This document shows, in pieces, positions 145-24,684 of a stretch of 64,000 bases of DNA (its first letter is position 1; each line of letters begins with the position of its first letter). The stretch covers positions 1 to 64,000 of the forward strand of contig JAMOUW010000083.1 in the NCBI GenBank assembly GCA_027067955.1. The letters are read 5' to 3'. The translations under genes were made by a program, and so were the position numbers. The DNA comes from Thermaceae bacterium. Its GTDB lineage: Bacteria; Deinococcota; Deinococci; Deinococcales; Marinithermaceae. A model generated the notes under the pieces. The model was given only the letters and a program-made list of their open reading frames with translations. It searched no databases and had not been told where the DNA came from.

Positions 145-936
145 TCAGGAGCCGCCAGCGTGGGGCAGTGCGGGCCAGACCATCAGGCTCTGCCCTGATT
201 TGAGTTCGTGCATGATTAGCAGTCCGGTGCCGAGCAGGAGAAAGCCTCCCAGATCTTCGGCGCCCCGTACGGGAAGCTTCAGGGTGCGGTTGCCAGCCCT
301 TACGTGAACGTGGTCGAACTTGCCGTAGTGCAGCCGCCAGGTTGACAAAAGCAGCTCGTCGATGTGGGCGTAAGGGGGCAGGGGATCTTCGATAGCCAGG
401 GTAAGGCGGGCGGTGTGGGGAGTGCGGTGTTCGACCTCTATCACACCCAGGCGGGCCAGGTGCCCCAAAATTGTCATGACAGTGCGCAGGGGGCGCTCGC
501 TGGCCACCGCAAGATCGAGTACGGAAATGGGCTTGCTGAGGCGGGTAAAAAGGGCCAGCTCGTCGGGGCTGAGCGTGAGGTGGCCCACGCTGCCACCCTG
601 ACCGAATTTGACCTTGTCGAAGGGGCTGACCTCCACCCGGTCGTCGAGACGGCGGATTGCCTGCAGCAGGTAATGATCGAGGTTCCGTTCCAGGGTGATT
701 TCGTCGGGCTCGGCGCCTTCTATGAAACGAAAGCGCCCCTCCTTGAGGAGAAGAATTTCCAGCATGGCTTCGTCGCCGCTCAGCGGACCCCAGCGGGCGT
801 GGGTCACCCGTGCGCCTTGCAGGTATACCGTTCCCTTCCCGCTAGAAGTTATCGTTTGGAATACCCCCTTTTTGCCGCCGCGCGCGAGGAGCTGCAGCAG
901 GTCAAGAGGCCCGAGAAGGGCGAAGGTTCCTTCCAT
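145..936 (-). CDS. DUF4388 domain protein
   Basis: A 263-residue protein whose first ~100 residues (MEGTFALLGPLDLLQLLARG..., then a GxGTVYLQGARVTHA stretch) match the DUF4388/PATAN pattern found in Deinococcus-Thermus, cyanobacterial and myxobacterial signalling proteins. A middle helical part (LSKPISVLDLAVASE, HLARLGVIEV) looks like a winged-helix fold. The frame is open further upstream, but the start at 936 is preferred: a TATAAC box lies exactly 6 nt before this ATG and the longer form would run through the fructosamine kinase gene. Function is unknown; a role in protein-protein signalling is inferred from the family. Confidence 0.75.
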   Translation of the reverse strand: MEGTFALLGPLDLLQLLARGGKKGVFQTITSSGKGTVYLQGARVTHARWGPLSGDEAMLEILLLKEGRFRFIEGAEPDEITLERNLDHYLLQAIRRLDDRVEVSPFDKVKFGQGGSVGHLTLSPDELALFTRLSKPISVLDLAVASERPLRTVMTILGHLARLGVIEVEHRTPHTARLTLAIEDPLPPYAHIDELLLSTWRLHYGKFDHVHVRAGNRTLKLPVRGAEDLGGFLLLGTGLLIMHELKSGQSLMVWPALPHAGGS

Positions 937-942
937 AACTAA

Positions 943-948
943 GTTATA
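943..948 (-). promoter_or_regulatory. -10 box of leaderless DUF4388 gene
   Basis: TATAAC on the minus strand, 6 nt before the ATG at 936. This spacing places the transcription start at or next to the start codon; no ribosome site is present. The -35 is not clear. Confidence 0.5.
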
Positions 949-956
949 TTTTACCG

Positions 957-1760
957 TTATATAAAGCCGTAGTGGTTTAAAGTGCGCCTGATTCCGGAAA
1001 GGTATCCTGCGCCAAAGAAGTGAAGGTGCACGAGCAGAAAGTAGAGCTGGTAGGCGGGAAGGGCCTCCTGTACTTCGGCGGACACTGGTCTGAGCTCCTC
1101 GTATGCCGACCAGAATGCAGGCGGGAAGCCACCGAACAGTCTCATCATAGCCAGATCCAGCGCGCGCTCGCCGCACCAGGCTGAAGGATCTATCAGCGCC
1201 GGACCGGAAGCCGTCATCAGCACATTGCCGCTCCAGAGATCCCCGTGAATCAGGGCCGGTCCTTCCGCAGGCCATTCGAAGGTATGGATGAAGCGCTCCA
1301 GGTGCCCGGCCAGGTCCGCCTGGGCTTTCCTGGTTGCTGCGAGCAATGGTTCCAGGCGATACTCCACCCAGTACGAGCGCCAAGACTTGCTCCGTCCTGG
1401 TGGTAGGGGAAAACGGCCAAGAAACACAGGATGGCTGCTGCCGTACGCCGCGGACTGTTTGCCGTGCAGATGGGCGAGCATGGTGGCCAGTTCTTCCCAG
1501 TTTTCGGTTCCCGGCGGCAAGTAGGAAAGGACTATTCCCTCTTCGCCCGCCCAGTAGACCGCGGGCGTGCGCGCGCCGGCGGCCGCCAGCAGCATGAGTC
1601 CGCGACCCTCCGCCGGGAACAGGCCGGGAGGGGGGCTGGGATGAGTTTTGACGACGTATTCCCCCAGCCGCCAGACCTGCCCCATGTCACCGCCGGAAAG
1701 CGGCTGCGGCGGTCCGGCGGCGCTGAGCCCGGCCAGGTGCAGTAGGGATTCAGGGCGCAT
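957..1760 (-). CDS. Fructosamine kinase family protein
   Basis: 267 residues. It has the aminoglycoside-phosphotransferase-like kinase fold of the fructosamine/ketosamine-3-kinase family: the Brenner-type loop IHGDLWSGN near residue 175 and the metal-binding LIDPSAWCGERALDLAM that follows. Such kinases phosphorylate sugars attached to amines so that early glycation products fall off, a useful repair at high temperature. The start overlaps the end of the phosphatase gene by 11 bp, so the two are probably translated from one message; a kinase next to a low-Mr phosphatase is a common pairing for ketosamine repair. Confidence 0.85.
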   Translation of the reverse strand: MRPESLLHLAGLSAAGPPQPLSGGDMGQVWRLGEYVVKTHPSPPPGLFPAEGRGLMLLAAAGARTPAVYWAGEEGIVLSYLPPGTENWEELATMLAHLHGKQSAAYGSSHPVFLGRFPLPPGRSKSWRSYWVEYRLEPLLAATRKAQADLAGHLERFIHTFEWPAEGPALIHGDLWSGNVLMTASGPALIDPSAWCGERALDLAMMRLFGGFPPAFWSAYEELRPVSAEVQEALPAYQLYFLLVHLHFFGAGYLSGIRRTLNHYGFI

Positions 1761-17722: not shown

Positions 17723-17751
17723 AGTCTACCGCCGCTGCAAACGATTCGCAA
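17723..17751 (-). promoter_or_regulatory. Promoter of the MFS gene
   Basis: Minus strand TTGCGA (plus 17746-17751), 17 bp, TAGACT (plus 17723-17728), then 7 nt to ATG 17715. A leaderless transcript is expected. Confidence 0.6.
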
Positions 17752-18086
17752 TAATAGCCCGCAAGCTGGTTGTAGCGGGGGAAGGGGGGTGGGACGTAAT
17801 GCGGTTGGCCCGGGGCGGATTGTAGCTAGCTGGCTGTACGGGGCGTGCTAGGTTTGGACCGGAGCGGGCGCCGGTTAGCGTCTGCGTGTTCGCGGGGGTG
17901 TCTGCACCGCCGCCGGTTTGTTTCACGAGCGCACACACTAGGAACGAAGAGCAAACGGGTGCGTCCCGGATGCGCCTATCACCGCTACTAGCGGTGAGGC
18001 TGCGGCTTTAACGAAGCAATAGAATATTTAGCGAAAAATAACCTGCATTCTGACTTTTGATAAACATCCTTTGTTTCATGGCATAA

Positions 18087-18116
18087 TTGCACGCCCGAGT
18101 TGGGCTTTGCTATCCT
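18087..18116 (+). promoter_or_regulatory. Candidate promoter of the heme-sensor operon
   Basis: TTGCAC (18087-18092), 18 bp, TATCCT (18111-18116). A start about 7 nt later would fall just before the GTG at 18126, giving a very short or absent leader. The -35 match is weak. Confidence 0.35.
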
Positions 18117-18125
18117 GTGCTCAAG

Positions 18126-18680
18126 GTGAGATATGAGGGTGTGATTGGCAAAATTGTTGGGCCCGAGGGATTCCAGGGTACCGAGGTTTACGCGAAACCT
18201 GCACAGGCCTGTTATGGCGCTATTAGTAAGCTCCGTAGCGCCCTGGTCAGCAGCGGATTTCCGCCGATAGAGATTCGCATCGGCTTCGAAAACGTTACGC
18301 TGCTGCACCTGGCCCACGACAGAAGCAACGATGTTTATTTCCTGAGCCCGGGCGCCGATCTCGACGAGGTCCGCAGGCGGATACTCACCTCCTCCCAGGA
18401 ACCCGATCAGGCATCCCGTACGCCACTAATATTGTCACGTCATACCTATGAAGACCTGCACGGCCTGTTTGCCTTATACGTAGGTCCTATGGCCGAGGTT
18501 TTGCTGGAAGAGGTATGGGAGAAGCTGGGAATCCCGAAAACAGGCCCCTGTCCCCACTGCGATATCGAGGTGCTCTTGCAAGCTATGACGACTCATATGC
18601 CCTCTGAAGAAGCGCATGAATTTGTCGCCAAAGCTCGCAAGCTGTTGTCCGACGCAGGAGGTCGCCATGGCAAACAATGA
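18126..18680 (+). CDS. Roadblock-like plus DUF8082-like signalling protein
   Basis: 184 residues from GTG 18126; TTG 18087 and other in-frame codons are possible starts. Residues ~5-95 look like a roadblock/LC7 fold (EGVIGKIVGPEGF..., IEIRIGFENVTLLHLAHD..., VYFLSPGADLDEVRRRI). Residues ~115-175 carry the pattern LFALYVGPMAEVLLEEVWEKLG ... LLQAMTTHMPSEEAHEFVAKA, typical of the helical domain (DUF8082) at the ends of many bacterial signalling proteins. First gene of a three-gene unit, overlapping the next by 14 bp. A regulator for the heme sensor is inferred. Confidence 0.65.
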   Translation: MRYEGVIGKIVGPEGFQGTEVYAKPAQACYGAISKLRSALVSSGFPPIEIRIGFENVTLLHLAHDRSNDVYFLSPGADLDEVRRRILTSSQEPDQASRTPLILSRHTYEDLHGLFALYVGPMAEVLLEEVWEKLGIPKTGPCPHCDIEVLLQAMTTHMPSEEAHEFVAKARKLLSDAGGRHGKQ

Positions 18681-19581
18681 AGTCGGTGGTGAAAAGGGGT
18701 CCGTAGAGAATACGACGCTGGCACGCAAGATAGGGCGCTACTTTGCTGCGGTAAGTTTGGCCGCGCTGGCTTTCGTTGTGGTTTTCTCCTACTGGAATGC
18801 ACGACAAACCGTGCTGGCCGAGGCGCAGAGCAAACTGCGTCTCACCAACGGCATAGTCAAGGCCATGCGCACTACCGTGCAGAAGGAGCTCAGACCGGTG
18901 TTTTTAAAGAAGGGCATTTTCCACCCTTCCCACGTAGTGTCATCGGCCACCATGATCGCAGCCGTTGGGCGTCACCTGCAAAGCGACCCGGAGTTTTCAC
19001 GCTATTTGATTCGTTACGTTTCCGACAACCCCACCAACCAGTCCAACTATCCGTCGGAAGGCGAGATGCTGGTCCTGAAGCACCTACGCAAGACGGGGAA
19101 GTCCGAGATCACGAAGGTCGTGAAGTTCCCCGAAGGGCCTTACCTGGTTCACGCCAAACCTCTCGTGGCCAAGTCGGGTTGTCTTTCCTGCCACGGCGAC
19201 CCGGCTGCCGCCCCCAAGGAGATCGTGGCGTTTTACGGGAGAGAAAGTGGATACCATTACCGTATCGGCGAGATCGTGGGCGCTGCTATCGTGGGCATCC
19301 CCTTTTCCGAGATAACGCCCCTTCTCATAAAACAGGCCGTATTGCTGAGCCTGATCATGGTTGCCGTGCTTGGTTTGGCGTTTTACCTGATTAACCGCTT
19401 CGTGCAGCAGGAAGTAGCGCTGCCGATAGTCCGCCTGACCGAGGTGGCGAAGGCGCTTAGCAAGGGTGCGGTTGACCGGCCGCTGCGCACTTCACGCAGT
19501 GACGAGATAGGCGCGCTGGTGCGCGCCATCGAGCTTTTGCGGCGCAGCATTCAGGTCGCCATTCGCAGAATGAAAGGATAG
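18667..19581 (+). CDS. Membrane c-type heme sensor with HAMP domain (DUF3365)
   Basis: 304 residues. A membrane helix at ~25-42, an outside domain, a second helix at ~218-245 and a HAMP domain to the end. The outside domain is DUF3365/Tll0287-like with the covalent heme site C172-LS-C175-H176 (SGCLSCHGDP), and KPLVAKSGC before it. Such domains sense redox state or small gases. There is no kinase, cyclase or methyl-accepting domain after HAMP, so the signal must pass to a separate partner, probably the roadblock or DUF4388 proteins encoded either side. ATG 18667 follows GGAGGTCGCC. Confidence 0.82.
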   Translation: MANNEVGGEKGSVENTTLARKIGRYFAAVSLAALAFVVVFSYWNARQTVLAEAQSKLRLTNGIVKAMRTTVQKELRPVFLKKGIFHPSHVVSSATMIAAVGRHLQSDPEFSRYLIRYVSDNPTNQSNYPSEGEMLVLKHLRKTGKSEITKVVKFPEGPYLVHAKPLVAKSGCLSCHGDPAAAPKEIVAFYGRESGYHYRIGEIVGAAIVGIPFSEITPLLIKQAVLLSLIMVAVLGLAFYLINRFVQQEVALPIVRLTEVAKALSKGAVDRPLRTSRSDEIGALVRAIELLRRSIQVAIRRMKG

Positions 19582-19585
19582 CGCT

Positions 19586-20176
19586 TTGGGAATTCGCGGC
19601 GGCGCACGTTCGATACCCCTACCACTCATTCTGACTAGCCTGGCTCAGTTAAGGCTGACGGGAGTCCTCACCGTCGATTCCAACCCCAAGGGAACCCTGA
19701 TCCTTTCCGGAGGCCAGCTGTGCTCTGTCTACTTCGGTAAGCTGACGGGATGCCGGGCGCTAAAGCTCATACTTGCCGAGGAAAGCGCTTCATACGCCTT
19801 CGACAAAAGCAACGAGGTGCTTTGTCCCCGCACCGTTTCCACGGAGGCGCTGCTGCTCGATGCCACGCGCGTGCTTGATGAAGAAAGAAGATCCTTGCGC
19901 GAACTGTTCAAACAGGCGCAATCGAAATGGCCTGACCGCGCCGTCGCCGCGGTTTACGCCACCAGCTTGATGGACCTCTGGCCCGGGGGGGAACGTAGTC
20001 GCGCCGAAAGCAAATTGAACTGGGTGCTTACACCCATGGTTTGCAGTTGGGAGCTGGGGGAGAGCCCCTTTGGAAGTCTCAAGAACATGGTCATTGATGC
20101 CGCCGGGGCTGACTTGTGGGTGAATTACCTTTTCAAGGGTGATGCGGCGATTTTCACCTGGCGCATGCATGGCTGA
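19586..20176 (+). CDS. DUF4388 domain protein
   Basis: 196 residues from TTG 19586, with AAAGGA 7 nt upstream. Residues ~10-95 match DUF4388 (LPLILTSLAQLRLTGVLTVDSNPKGTLILSGGQLCSVYFGKLTGCRAL). The rest is helical and unassigned (LNWVLTPMVCSWELGESPFGSL). Begins 4 bp after the heme sensor gene and is clearly co-transcribed. It has the same domain as the first gene of the window (145-936) but no winged-helix part. Likely the output or adaptor of the sensor. Confidence 0.68.
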   Translation: MGIRGGARSIPLPLILTSLAQLRLTGVLTVDSNPKGTLILSGGQLCSVYFGKLTGCRALKLILAEESASYAFDKSNEVLCPRTVSTEALLLDATRVLDEERRSLRELFKQAQSKWPDRAVAAVYATSLMDLWPGGERSRAESKLNWVLTPMVCSWELGESPFGSLKNMVIDAAGADLWVNYLFKGDAAIFTWRMHG

Positions 20177-20329
20177 CAACCGGTACCGGCCGGTTCTGGC
20201 TGGGTGACCACAAACTGTTTCGGCCTGCCGCCAAAAGCGCCGCCGGTCGGGGTGGCGGCAACTTTTACCGTGGCCGCCAGATCGCGACAGCGGATTGTCA
20301 TGAATAGTATGGGTGAAAGGGAGGTTCGC

Positions 20330-20842
20330 ATGATGATCAGCAGCACGCTCACGAAAGCGCTCAACGAACAGATCGGGCACGAGCTCAGCGCCCACAACCA
20401 TTATCTGGCCACCGCGGTGTATTTCGCCAAACGGTCACTGGACGGTTGGGCGGCGTTCTTCTTCCGCCAGGCGGAGGAGGAGCGCGAGCACTCGCTCAAG
20501 ATTCTGCACTTCCTGCTGGACAATGACATCGCTCCGTACATCCCCCAGACGGCGGAGGCCAAGCCGGGCTTCGCAGATGCGGTGGAAGCGGTGGCCAGCG
20601 CGGTTAGGGCTGAGCGCACGGTGACCACCCAATTCGAAGCCATGATGGCCATTGCCCATCAGGAAAACGACTACCGGGCAGTGCCGTTATTGCAGTGGTT
20701 CCTTAACGAGCAGATAGAAGAGGAAGCCACCATGGGCAAGCTGCTCGATCTGGTACAAAGCGGTATCAATCTCTTCCAGGCACAGGACTACCTGCCCCGG
20801 CCCCATGCCGATGGCGGGGAGGAGGTCCCAGAGAGCGAGTGA
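20330..20842 (+). CDS. Ferritin (non-heme, FtnA-like)
   Basis: 170 residues, four-helix ferritin fold. Ligands of the dinuclear iron site are visible: E in [25 protein letters not shown] (ExxH) and, in the second pair, EQIEEEATM. It oxidises and stores iron as a 24-subunit shell. Start ATG 20330 follows GGGAGG by 5 nt. The stop overlaps the GTG of msrA (GTGA), so iron storage and methionine repair were made together before msrA was broken. Confidence 0.9.
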
Positions 20843-21353
20843 GTGAATTCGCCATCCTAGGCGGGGGCTGTTTCTGGTGTCTGGAGGCGGCCTTCCGCCC
20901 GCTGAGGGGTGTGATCGACGTGGTGCCGGCGGCCACGTCGAAGACCCCAGCTACGAGAAGGTGTCCACGGGTACCACCGGCCACGCCGAAGTGGTGCGCG
21001 CTGCCTTCGACCCCGACGTGATCAGCTACGAACAGCTGCTCGACGTTTTCTTCGCGGTGCATGACCCTACGACCAGGGACCGCCAGGGCTACGACGTGGG
21101 GCCGCAGTACCGTTCGATAATCTTTTATGAAGGCGAGGCGCAAATGGAGGCAGCCCTGCGCAAGATCAAGGCGCTTTCCGGCTTCTTCAAGCCGCGCATC
21201 GTTACCGAGGTGAAGCCGCTGGAGCACTTCTGGCTCGCGGAGCCGGAGCATCACCACTACTTCGACAAATACCCTCAGGACCCGTATTGCCAGGCCGTCA
21301 TCGCGCCCAAGGTGAGCAAGGTCATTTGGGGTTTCCGTCCGCTTCTCAAATAG
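20839..21353 (+). pseudogene. msrA: Peptide methionine-(S)-sulfoxide reductase, frameshifted
   Basis: The first frame gives [22 protein letters not shown], with the catalytic Cys in GCFWC, up to VIDVV. The second frame continues [21 protein letters not shown] through YCQAVIAPKV to the stop. Between them the GYxGG turn is largely gone: GTG GTG is followed by CCGGCGGCCAC where 10 more bases are expected. The gap fits deletion between two CCGG repeats at ~20926. As read the gene cannot make full MsrA; a sequencing error cannot be excluded. Both halves are otherwise well conserved, so the lesion is recent. Confidence 0.85.
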
Positions 21354-21404
21354 GCGGACCGTAGGGGAGGAGTTCGGGACCCTCCCTTGTTTACGAATGC
21401 CCCG

Positions 21405-22793
21405 TTACCGGTGCCGGAGGTGGTACGACTTCACCCGCGTCAGCTGGTGGTAACCCAGCTCTGAAAGGGTCACGCCGCGGCCGGTGTCCTTGACGCCGGT
21501 CCAGGCCAGAGCCGGGTCTAGGTAGTCGGCGCGATTCATGAAGACCGTACCGGTTTCGATTCGTGCTCCCAGCCGCTCGGCCCGTTCCAGGTCGCGTGTC
21601 CACAAGGATGCCGAGAGACCGTAGCGGCTGTCGTTCATCAGAGCCAGGGCCTCTTCGTCGCCGCTGACCTTCATGACGCCCACCACCGGGCCGAAGGTTT
21701 CCTCGGTCATGATGCTCATCTGGTGGTTGACGTCCACCAGTACTTGCGGCGCCAGGTAAGGGGTGCCTTCTTCGGACGCGGGGAAGAGCTTGGGGTCTAT
21801 CAGGGCTTTGGCTCCTTTGCTAACGCCCTCCGCTATCTGCTCGCGCACCCAGTTCGCCGCTGAGGTGCGCACCAGCGGCCCCAGGGTGGTTTCGGGGTTC
21901 GTGGGGTCGCCCAGCTGGTATTTCTTTACCAGGTCCACATACCCCTCGACGAAATCGCCGTACAGCTTTTCGTGTACATATATTCGTTCTATTGCACAAC
22001 ACGACTGGCCAGCGTTGAAGAAAGCGCCGTCTACGGTGTTTTCGATCGTGAAATCGAGATCCGCGTCCTCCATTACATAGGCTGGATCCTTGCCGCCGAG
22101 CTCGAGCCCCGTTCCCACGAAACGGTTCGCGGCGGCCTTGACCACCACGTGACCGCCGGGCACGGAGCCGGTGAAGGCAATGAAATCAACCCGCTCGTCG
22201 GCAATCATCTGCGCTATTGCTTTATGCCCGGTATGTAGATACTGAAAGACCCCCGGAGGTAGTCCGGCGGCGTCGAATGCCTCCTGATAGCGTTCCGCCA
22301 CTAGCGGTGTCTGGGTGGACATTTTGAGGATAACCGTATTTCCTGCCACCAGCGCCGGCACCACGCTGTTCACCGAGGTGAGCCAGGGATAATTCCAGGG
22401 TGCTAGCACGAGAACCGTTCCCAGCGGTTCGCGCCGGATAAAGCGGGTAAATCCCTCTATCGGGTCGGGTATCAGGTCCGCCAGGGCCTTTGGGGCAATG
22501 CCGATCATGAACTCGGCCCGCTCCTTGAGCCCCCGGGTAAGTTCGAAGGGGCTGTGGGCGATAGGACGGCCCATTTGCCAGGTAAGTTCCTTGGCCAGTA
22601 CATCGGCGCGTTCCAGCAGGTAATCTACGGCTTTTCGCACCAGCTCCTGGCGTTCTTCAAGCGGCCGCGAGCGCCATTCGGAGCGCGCTTTCCTGGCGTT
22701 TTCCAGGGCGGCTTCAATATGCGCTTCATCCGCTACTTCGCGTTCGACATAGACCGAGCCGTCCACCGGGCTGATTGTCTTGAACTTTGGCAT
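21405..22793 (-). CDS. NAD(P)-dependent aldehyde dehydrogenase
   Basis: 462 residues. Clear ALDH signature: APWNYPW and KMS (cofactor Lys), FTGSVPGG, catalytic-base LELGGKDPAYV and nucleophile FNAGQSC near residue 260. It oxidises aldehydes to acids; the set of residues does not fix the substrate. Ribosome site AGGAGCGG precedes the ATG. It follows an SDR gene by about 9 bp; an alcohol-to-aldehyde-to-acid pair is a reasonable idea. Confidence 0.9.
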   Translation of the reverse strand: MPKFKTISPVDGSVYVEREVADEAHIEAALENARKARSEWRSRPLEERQELVRKAVDYLLERADVLAKELTWQMGRPIAHSPFELTRGLKERAEFMIGIAPKALADLIPDPIEGFTRFIRREPLGTVLVLAPWNYPWLTSVNSVVPALVAGNTVILKMSTQTPLVAERYQEAFDAAGLPPGVFQYLHTGHKAIAQMIADERVDFIAFTGSVPGGHVVVKAAANRFVGTGLELGGKDPAYVMEDADLDFTIENTVDGAFFNAGQSCCAIERIYVHEKLYGDFVEGYVDLVKKYQLGDPTNPETTLGPLVRTSAANWVREQIAEGVSKGAKALIDPKLFPASEEGTPYLAPQVLVDVNHQMSIMTEETFGPVVGVMKVSGDEEALALMNDSRYGLSASLWTRDLERAERLGARIETGTVFMNRADYLDPALAWTGVKDTGRGVTLSELGYHQLTRVKSYHLRHR

Positions 22794-22802
22794 GGTCCGC
22801 TC

Positions 22803-23576
<774 letters not shown>

Positions 23577-23634
23577 ACATACCTCCACGCCTCAGGCTAC
23601 ACCGCCCTACCCGCGGGAAGCATCTACAGCGCCA

Positions 23635-24684
23635 TCACTCACCGCACTCCGGATTAAGGAGAGCATCCACCACCGGCTTCATGTAATCGAGCCACTCTTT
23701 TTTGTTGACGTCGTAGAAGTGTTGATCCGCATTTACCGAATAAGGAATATGCGCTTTACGCAGCGCGCAGGACACGAAGGTGGCAAAAACCACCTGCTCT
23801 TCAACCGTATAATCATTGCCCCTGTTGTAGTTGCCCGGCATCCACGCCCCCTGCCATACCGGCACCCCGGTCTTCTTGCGCCACTCGACCATCAGGTCCA
23901 CGTGCTTTTGCACCATGGCCTTTTCTTCGGGCGTGCCGGTGGTCCAGCGTGATTTGGATTTGCTGTCCTTCGAGGGCCCCGCAGCATAAAAGTGGCTTTC
24001 TGCCCCGAGGTACTTATCGCCCTTGTTGAACAGCCCTTCGATCTCCGGCAGACCCTCGGGCTGCGCCCAGTATCGCGGCGCCAGGAAGATCACCCGCTTG
24101 GGATGCAAGGGGCGGACTACCTTGAGCGACTCGCGGTAGAACTTTAGTAGCAGCTCGGGACTATCAAGCTTGTTGAGGTTCTTCCCGGGTTCTATGTGCA
24201 GATCGAAAGCCAGCTTGCCGGGGTATCCCTTGAACCGCTCGGCAACGGTGCGCCACCAGTCGACGGCCTTCTTGAGGCTTGCCTCGTCGGCCTTTTCGTT
24301 GAACTCCATGGCAGCCAGGGTGATTATGGCGTACATGCCCGTATCCAGGGTGTCGCGCACCACCTTCTCCAGGTGGTCCAGGTACTTCTTATCATCCACG
24401 ATCTTGAAGCGGATGCGCGCGTGGGTGAAGCCCCGCTTGGCCATATCCTGGGGCATTTGTTTGGTATAAGCGCGAATTTCTCTTTTGAACAGGGCCCAGT
24501 TGACATCCAGACCGACGCCCATTTTGGAAACGTAACCCGCAGGTGTTATTGGCTCTGCCGGCTGACCGGGCTCCGAGGGGTTGGTGGGCGGGTTCGTGCC
24601 TCCGGGGGGCGTGGTACTGCGGCAGGATGAGGATAGGAACATCAATGCCAGCACCGCCAATAGAACCGTGCAAGTTTTGATCAT
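23635..24684 (-). CDS. Lipoprotein with a GH5-like (cellulase superfamily) TIM barrel
   Basis: 349 residues. Lipoprotein signal MIKTCTVLLAVLALMFLSSSC, a Pro/Thr/Gly-rich linker, then a barrel: GVGLDVNW, FTHARIRFK, YAIITLAAMEF, LAFDLHIEPGK (place of the usual NEP acid), KRVIFLAPRYW, ESHFYAAG, VPVWQGAWM. The last should read GEF or GEW in an active GH5; the nucleophile Glu appears replaced by Ala. Start at 24684 follows AAAGG. A carbohydrate-binding or inactive enzyme is possible. Lower GC and AT-rich upstream end differ from neighbours. Confidence 0.7.
   Translation of the reverse strand: MIKTCTVLLAVLALMFLSSSCRSTTPPGGTNPPTNPSEPGQPAEPITPAGYVSKMGVGLDVNWALFKREIRAYTKQMPQDMAKRGFTHARIRFKIVDDKKYLDHLEKVVRDTLDTGMYAIITLAAMEFNEKADEASLKKAVDWWRTVAERFKGYPGKLAFDLHIEPGKNLNKLDSPELLLKFYRESLKVVRPLHPKRVIFLAPRYWAQPEGLPEIEGLFNKGDKYLGAESHFYAAGPSKDSKSKSRWTTGTPEEKAMVQKHVDLMVEWRKKTGVPVWQGAWMPGNYNRGNDYTVEEQVVFATFVSCALRKAHIPYSVNADQHFYDVNKKEWLDYMKPVVDALLNPECGE

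Follow-up and report, generated by a model that had tools for sequence, protein, structure and literature searches.

A heme receptor that ends in HAMP and its STAC-domain neighbour: a conserved bacterial gene pair in an accessory cassette of a Thermaceae bacterium

Since Af1503 was taken up as the structural model of HAMP signalling, receptors that end in a HAMP domain and carry no output have been puzzling. Af1503 is an archaeal receptor with HAMP as its sole cytosolic part, and it is translationally coupled to Af1502, a STAC protein (PMC4834066). The sensor domain DUF3365 was defined as a c-heme Cache domain in a 2026 preprint. There, a HAMP-only DUF3365 protein of P. azotoformans without the axial Cys binds NO and releases it slowly, and a stand-alone, Cys-ligated member appears to be of the redox type (PMC12889525).

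We analysed a stretch of 64,000 nucleotides from a Thermaceae bacterium (contig JAMOUW010000083.1; hereafter the window). Three co-directional genes lie closely spaced on its + strand, at 18126-18680, 18667-19581 and 19586-20176. Genes 1 and 2 overlap by 14 bp and a 4-bp gap separates genes 2 and 3, which bears out the tight packing reported in the preliminary description. The reading frame of gene 1 is open from TTG 18087 and has in-frame GTG codons at 18126 and 18141. Gene 2 starts with ATG and gene 3 with TTG. Promoter and terminator scans of the locus gave results near chance. The features of the locus are as follows.

17730 to 20332, no strand: accessory cassette, no counterpart in four congeners (BLASTN), GC 57.3% versus 64.4%
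18126 to 18680, + strand: gene 1, with STAC in its C-terminal half and a roadblock-like N-terminal half; begins at GTG 18126 or 18141
18198 to 18395, + strand: roadblock/LC7-like half of gene 1 as predicted by AlphaFold2 at moderate confidence (helix, three strands, helix)
18429 to 18647, + strand: predicted STAC domain of gene 1, a four-helix unit whose first two helices flank GPMAE
18656 to 18661, + strand: Shine-Dalgarno sequence AGGAGG of gene 2, within gene 1 (from sequence)
18667 to 19581, + strand: gene 2, c-heme receptor of the HAMP-only kind, with sCache_heme/Tll0287-like and HAMP domains (from Pfam and relatives)
19180 to 19194, + strand: c-heme attachment motif CLSCH (from sequence), invariant in the receptor alignment A1
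19420 to 19554, + strand: HAMP domain of gene 2 (PF00672), with 8 residues remaining to the protein end
19586 to 20176, + strand: gene 3, DUF4388 protein with an uncharacterised C-terminal half (PF14332, purifying selection, AlphaFold2)

The BLASTN matches of the four congeners stop at about 17729 and restart at 20332-20333. Where the window has 2.6 kb, the congeners have an empty site of about 75-80 bp between an MFS gene and a ferritin-like gene. Because of these empty sites and the deviating GC content of the insert, we regard the trio as an accessory cassette. It was probably acquired horizontally. The Tll0287 domain of gene 2 was not found in any other sampled member of the same genus or family; elsewhere in the phylum it occurs in 2 of 111 genomes, in proteins of about 740 amino acids. 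The genome assembly is 78% complete. Another contig of the same genome (C3, locus L141; 4 kb) is a strain variant of window positions 19657-23766 and 95% identical to it. Hence the bin mixes two strains, both with at least gene 3.

Gene 2 combines a Tll0287-like/DUF3365 domain (PF11845; E 1.1e-26, 94.4 bits against a cut-off of 24.1) with a HAMP domain at residues 252-296 of 304 (E 1e-7). Its CXXCH motif reads CLSCH (residues 172-176), and cytochrome c assembly genes are encoded in the genome. The chain apparently crosses the membrane twice, and apart from HAMP no domain extends into the cytosol, as in Af1503-like receptors. Pfam finds no kinase, cyclase or MCP domain in gene 2; the protein ends after HAMP with no fused output. 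The domain matches and the CLSCH motif thus agree with the earlier claim of a membrane protein with a c-heme DUF3365 domain and HAMP but no kinase or cyclase. It was also rightly concluded that such a sensor must signal to a separate protein, since no output is fused to HAMP.

At the axial Cys position of the alignment, gene 2 has a residue other than Cys; the Cys is conserved in five stand-alone forms. With this residue absent and HAMP present, gene 2 fits the signalling-type sCache_heme proteins (Cluster 2, NO-binding). NO is the leading candidate ligand, because the HAMP-only homologue that binds NO has no axial Cys either. If gene 2 were instead a redox or electron-transfer protein, with neighbours brought together by coincidence in cassette assembly and no signalling from HAMP to STAC, this would match the apparent redox type of the stand-alone forms (PMC12889525) and the accessory, compositionally foreign insert. 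However, gene 2 has a HAMP domain and, unlike typical redox forms, no axial Cys, and the STAC linkage described below is specific to HAMP-only forms; we consider this reading very improbable.

The C-terminal half of gene 1 is, by sequence profiles and predicted fold, a STAC domain. An HMM from kinase STACs alone gave just E 0.12 for gene 1, and therefore larger neighbour-based profiles were used. The HMM built only from receptor neighbours matches residues 115-187 with E 1e-6 (next-best ORF of the window: 0.85). With Deinococcota domains only, E is 1.2e-10, in a profile for which several member STACs were originally found via similarity to gene 1 or via a profile containing gene 1. When the combined profile was compared with 177,635 PDB sequences, the top match was Af1502 (5A1Q); this match is modest (E 0.0017) and mainly covers the first hairpin. 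The same structure is the PDB fold match of highest probability for gene 1 (Foldseek prob 0.84, TM 0.59, E 0.4). In the AlphaFold2 model four helices have high pLDDT, GP separates the first from the second, and the LGPx(x)A motif, with V for L, appears as VGPMAE between helices 105-119 and 123-134. Helices 2 and 3 are linked by an additional GPCPHC loop (window 18540-18570), which is absent from the other STACs seen and is a possible metal or redox site.

The preliminary description had called gene 1 a roadblock plus DUF8082-like protein. The DUF8082 label has to be replaced by STAC: it has no Pfam or NCBIfam match in gene 1 or related STAC proteins, and a literature search on DUF8082 returned no paper. 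The roadblock label stands weakly, through the fold. Foldseek matches of the N-terminal half to roadblock proteins (1VET, 9JUE and MglB 6H5B) are weak, with prob 0.2-0.44 and E above 1; gene 1 has neither a Pfam or NCBIfam match to roadblock (PF03259) nor hhalign similarity to the roadblock protein of the same genome. Indeed, no Pfam model scored significantly against gene 1. The modelled N-terminal unit thus bears a weak resemblance to half a roadblock domain. Two other genomes gave matches to the gene 1 N-terminus, which fall in unrelated proteins and were discarded.

We collected 80 heme-HAMP receptor loci by a genome scan with the receptor alignment alone. A single-protein scan of genome contigs with gene 2 had given no match; the relatives were found by the alignment-based scan. 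A STAC gene lies within 1.5 kb of 73 of the 80 receptors, and the Deinococcota-only STAC HMM still detects the neighbour at 72 of them. No STAC neighbour was detected at seven of the 80 loci, one of which (L033) is cut short on one side. As a control we sorted a sample of DUF3365 matches in other genomes by architecture. STAC neighbours occur beside 7 of 8 HAMP-only proteins, some of them in genomes that similarity to the receptor had first brought up, and beside none of the 30 proteins of other architecture (fused 0/22, stand-alone 0/5, short-tailed or other 0/3; Fisher p 6e-7). Among DUF3365 proteins, the HAMP-only forms are thus the ones specifically linked to STAC, and the linkage is a functional association, not physical contact. 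Neighbourhood and homology, two independent lines, both point to one known pair, Af1503/Af1502. Neighbourhood conservation, the check proposed earlier, therefore holds for the receptor-STAC pair and fails for the exact trio, which was found in no other genome. In Kovacikia (L026:4848-6422) DUF3365-HAMP continues into a stretch similar to a cyclic-nucleotide-binding domain and adjoins phage-tail-like genes; as expected for a fused output, it has no STAC neighbour.

STAC is C-terminal in all 83 STAC genes for which we recorded the fused module (72 kinases, 5 cyclases, 2 with both and 4 others). On plasmids of Skermanella, Rhodovulum, Paraburkholderia and Caballeronia the gene after DUF3365-HAMP encodes a Ser/Thr kinase that carries two GPxA repeats at its C-terminus, and these pairs often lie inside T6SS clusters. 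This location suggests control of T6SS by a heme ligand. Individual DUF3365-HAMP and kinase-STAC pairs in or beside T6SS clusters (tagF, tssM, tssB-F) are found at L020, L023, L024, L025 and L027, and some T6SS-associated pairs are also accompanied by a PP2C phosphatase and a FecR-domain protein. In cyanobacteria, C-terminal STAC domains were also seen on a caspase-like protein and on soluble histidine-kinase-like proteins (L086:10732-12867; L085:6808-8112; L059:6795-7769).

Within the Deinococcota, 30 of 111 genomes have STAC genes. Among the 26 genes examined, 19 lie at most 250 bp from a receptor ending in HAMP, as recognised by HMM, many with a 4-bp overlap. Here STAC is fused to DUF4388 or GntR/FCD modules and the partner receptors have non-heme sensors. 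The pairing of HAMP-terminated receptors with STAC extends to receptors without heme. GntR/FCD transcription factors with C-terminal STAC (L128, L181, L184, L185 and L186) mostly stand beside HAMP-only receptors, some with dCache, and near transport genes. They are apparently membrane-controlled one-component regulators. Directly upstream of some DUF4388-STAC and receptor pairs are proteins of about 300 amino acids (L138:6131-7015, L140:6499-7494, L188:3357-4376), which have no Pfam match; these loci belong to two families of the order.

Gene 3 is the DUF4388 protein that had been proposed (PF14332; E 3.1e-7, 30.9 bits against a cut-off of 25). Compared with the strain-variant contig it has 11 synonymous and 2 non-synonymous codon differences; it is coding and under purifying selection. 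The AlphaFold2 model is confident for the N-terminal part only, and a fold search with gene 3 gave no match. Since DUF4388-STAC is the usual fusion in Deinococcota, genes 1 and 3 may together correspond to that fusion in split form. A second DUF4388-like protein in the window (145-1383, - strand) is apparently without receptor linkage. MglA-like and roadblock genes are encoded elsewhere in the genome (contig C59). A GTPase target is therefore possible, and an MglA-like output remains speculative. A search for literature on DUF4388 with MglA, roadblock or STAC found nothing useful.

Gene 3 or an unlinked partner might be the main receiver and STAC a membrane or scaffold anchor: DUF4388-STAC fusions are found in many Deinococcota pairs, the DUF4388 gene adjoins the receptor here, and the STAC domain of CbrA docks on a transporter (PMC13022988). 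Across lineages, however, STAC is the constant element and the other module varies. We thus regard an anchoring role as unlikely.

The literature also proposes transport as the business of STAC, and the system could accordingly regulate a transporter rather than a signalling enzyme. Transport genes are enriched at Af1503-like loci, where their operon linkage is described as frequent, not universal; some Deinococcota GntR-STAC pairs adjoin them as well, and an MFS gene is adjacent in the window. But this MFS gene lies on the opposite strand and belongs to the ancestral flank, being kept in congeners without the cassette. It is the nearest, divergent transporter; no transport gene shares an operon with the trio. 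Kinases and cyclases also make up most of the STAC partners detected, and regulation of a transporter appears highly unlikely.

We consider it likely that the pair is a split receptor, in which gene 2 signals via HAMP to the STAC domain of gene 1, which in turn controls its fused module. The extracytoplasmic c-heme Cache domain would sense a heme ligand, with NO favoured, or redox state. Ligand at the heme would rearrange HAMP, the only cytoplasmic part of gene 2 besides a short tail. The C-terminal STAC domain of gene 1 would recognise the HAMP signal and pass the change to the roadblock-like domain, which probably acts together with the DUF4388 protein; the MglA-like GTPase of the cell is a candidate target. 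Beyond the window, receptors of this type would act on Ser/Thr kinases or nucleotide cyclases that carry STAC, and receptors that lack an output but have other sensors would use STAC on GntR regulators or DUF4388.

A broader reading, which we hold about as likely as not, is that STAC serves generally for docking and signal transmission in a split-receptor class, and that the heme-Cache version of this class links extracytoplasmic NO with kinases and T6SS clusters. Output-less HAMP receptors with almost any sensor would then switch separate cytosolic effectors, namely Ser/Thr kinases, cyclases, caspase-like, histidine-kinase, GntR, DUF4388 and roadblock-like proteins. If true, two-component and chemotaxis systems are joined by a widespread class of split-receptor signalling. 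The specific pairing with effectors that end in STAC, backed by a clean control, offers a testable answer to where the signal of output-less receptors goes. The role of STAC would broaden from transporter linkage to, probably, a general coupling of receptors and effectors, and NO-binding heme Cache receptors would gain probable downstream enzymes.

To call the trio an undescribed way to read redox state or a gas was too strong. The heme domain and the NO binding of a HAMP-only form have been described (PMC12889525), and a HAMP-only receptor with a STAC protein is already known from the archaeal Af1503/Af1502 (PMC4834066). Known, then, are the component domains and the archaeal precedent. Apparently new are the bacterial generality, the architecture-specific linkage, the coupling of a heme sensor of the NO type to STAC, and the fusion of STAC to kinases, cyclases, GntR, DUF4388 and roadblock-like proteins. 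In the literature examined, no prior description of this generality, of the effector range or of the architecture-specific linkage was found; the 2015 STAC article, which lies outside it, may mention some fusions.

The closest known system is Af1503/Af1502 of Archaeoglobus fulgidus (5A1Q is Af1502), in which a HAMP-only receptor is likewise coupled to a STAC gene, here by the 14-bp overlap. In contrast to the archaeal pair, ours is bacterial, has a c-heme Cache sensor and an extra DUF4388 gene, and its gene order is reversed; STAC is free-standing in Af1502 and fused to a roadblock-like domain in gene 1. P. azotoformans WP_033902098 shares with gene 2 the c-heme Cache domain, two membrane helices and HAMP, and the lack of output and axial Cys. 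This homologue binds NO and is known as a dimer; its partner is not discussed (PMC12889525). In the CbrA/CrbS transceptors STAC likewise connects a membrane part with a cytosolic signalling part, but it sits in one chain between an SLC5 transporter and a histidine kinase, whereas STAC in the window is on a separate protein. The DUF3365-HAMP and Ser/Thr kinase-STAC pairs of proteobacteria (often in T6SS clusters) and cyanobacteria place the same receptor type beside STAC, and differ in their kinase or cyclase effector and often in having two STAC repeats. Finally, the Deinococcota pairs of DUF4388-STAC and HAMP-only receptor come from the same phylum and use the same set of modules, but join DUF4388 and STAC in a single chain and have a non-heme sensor.
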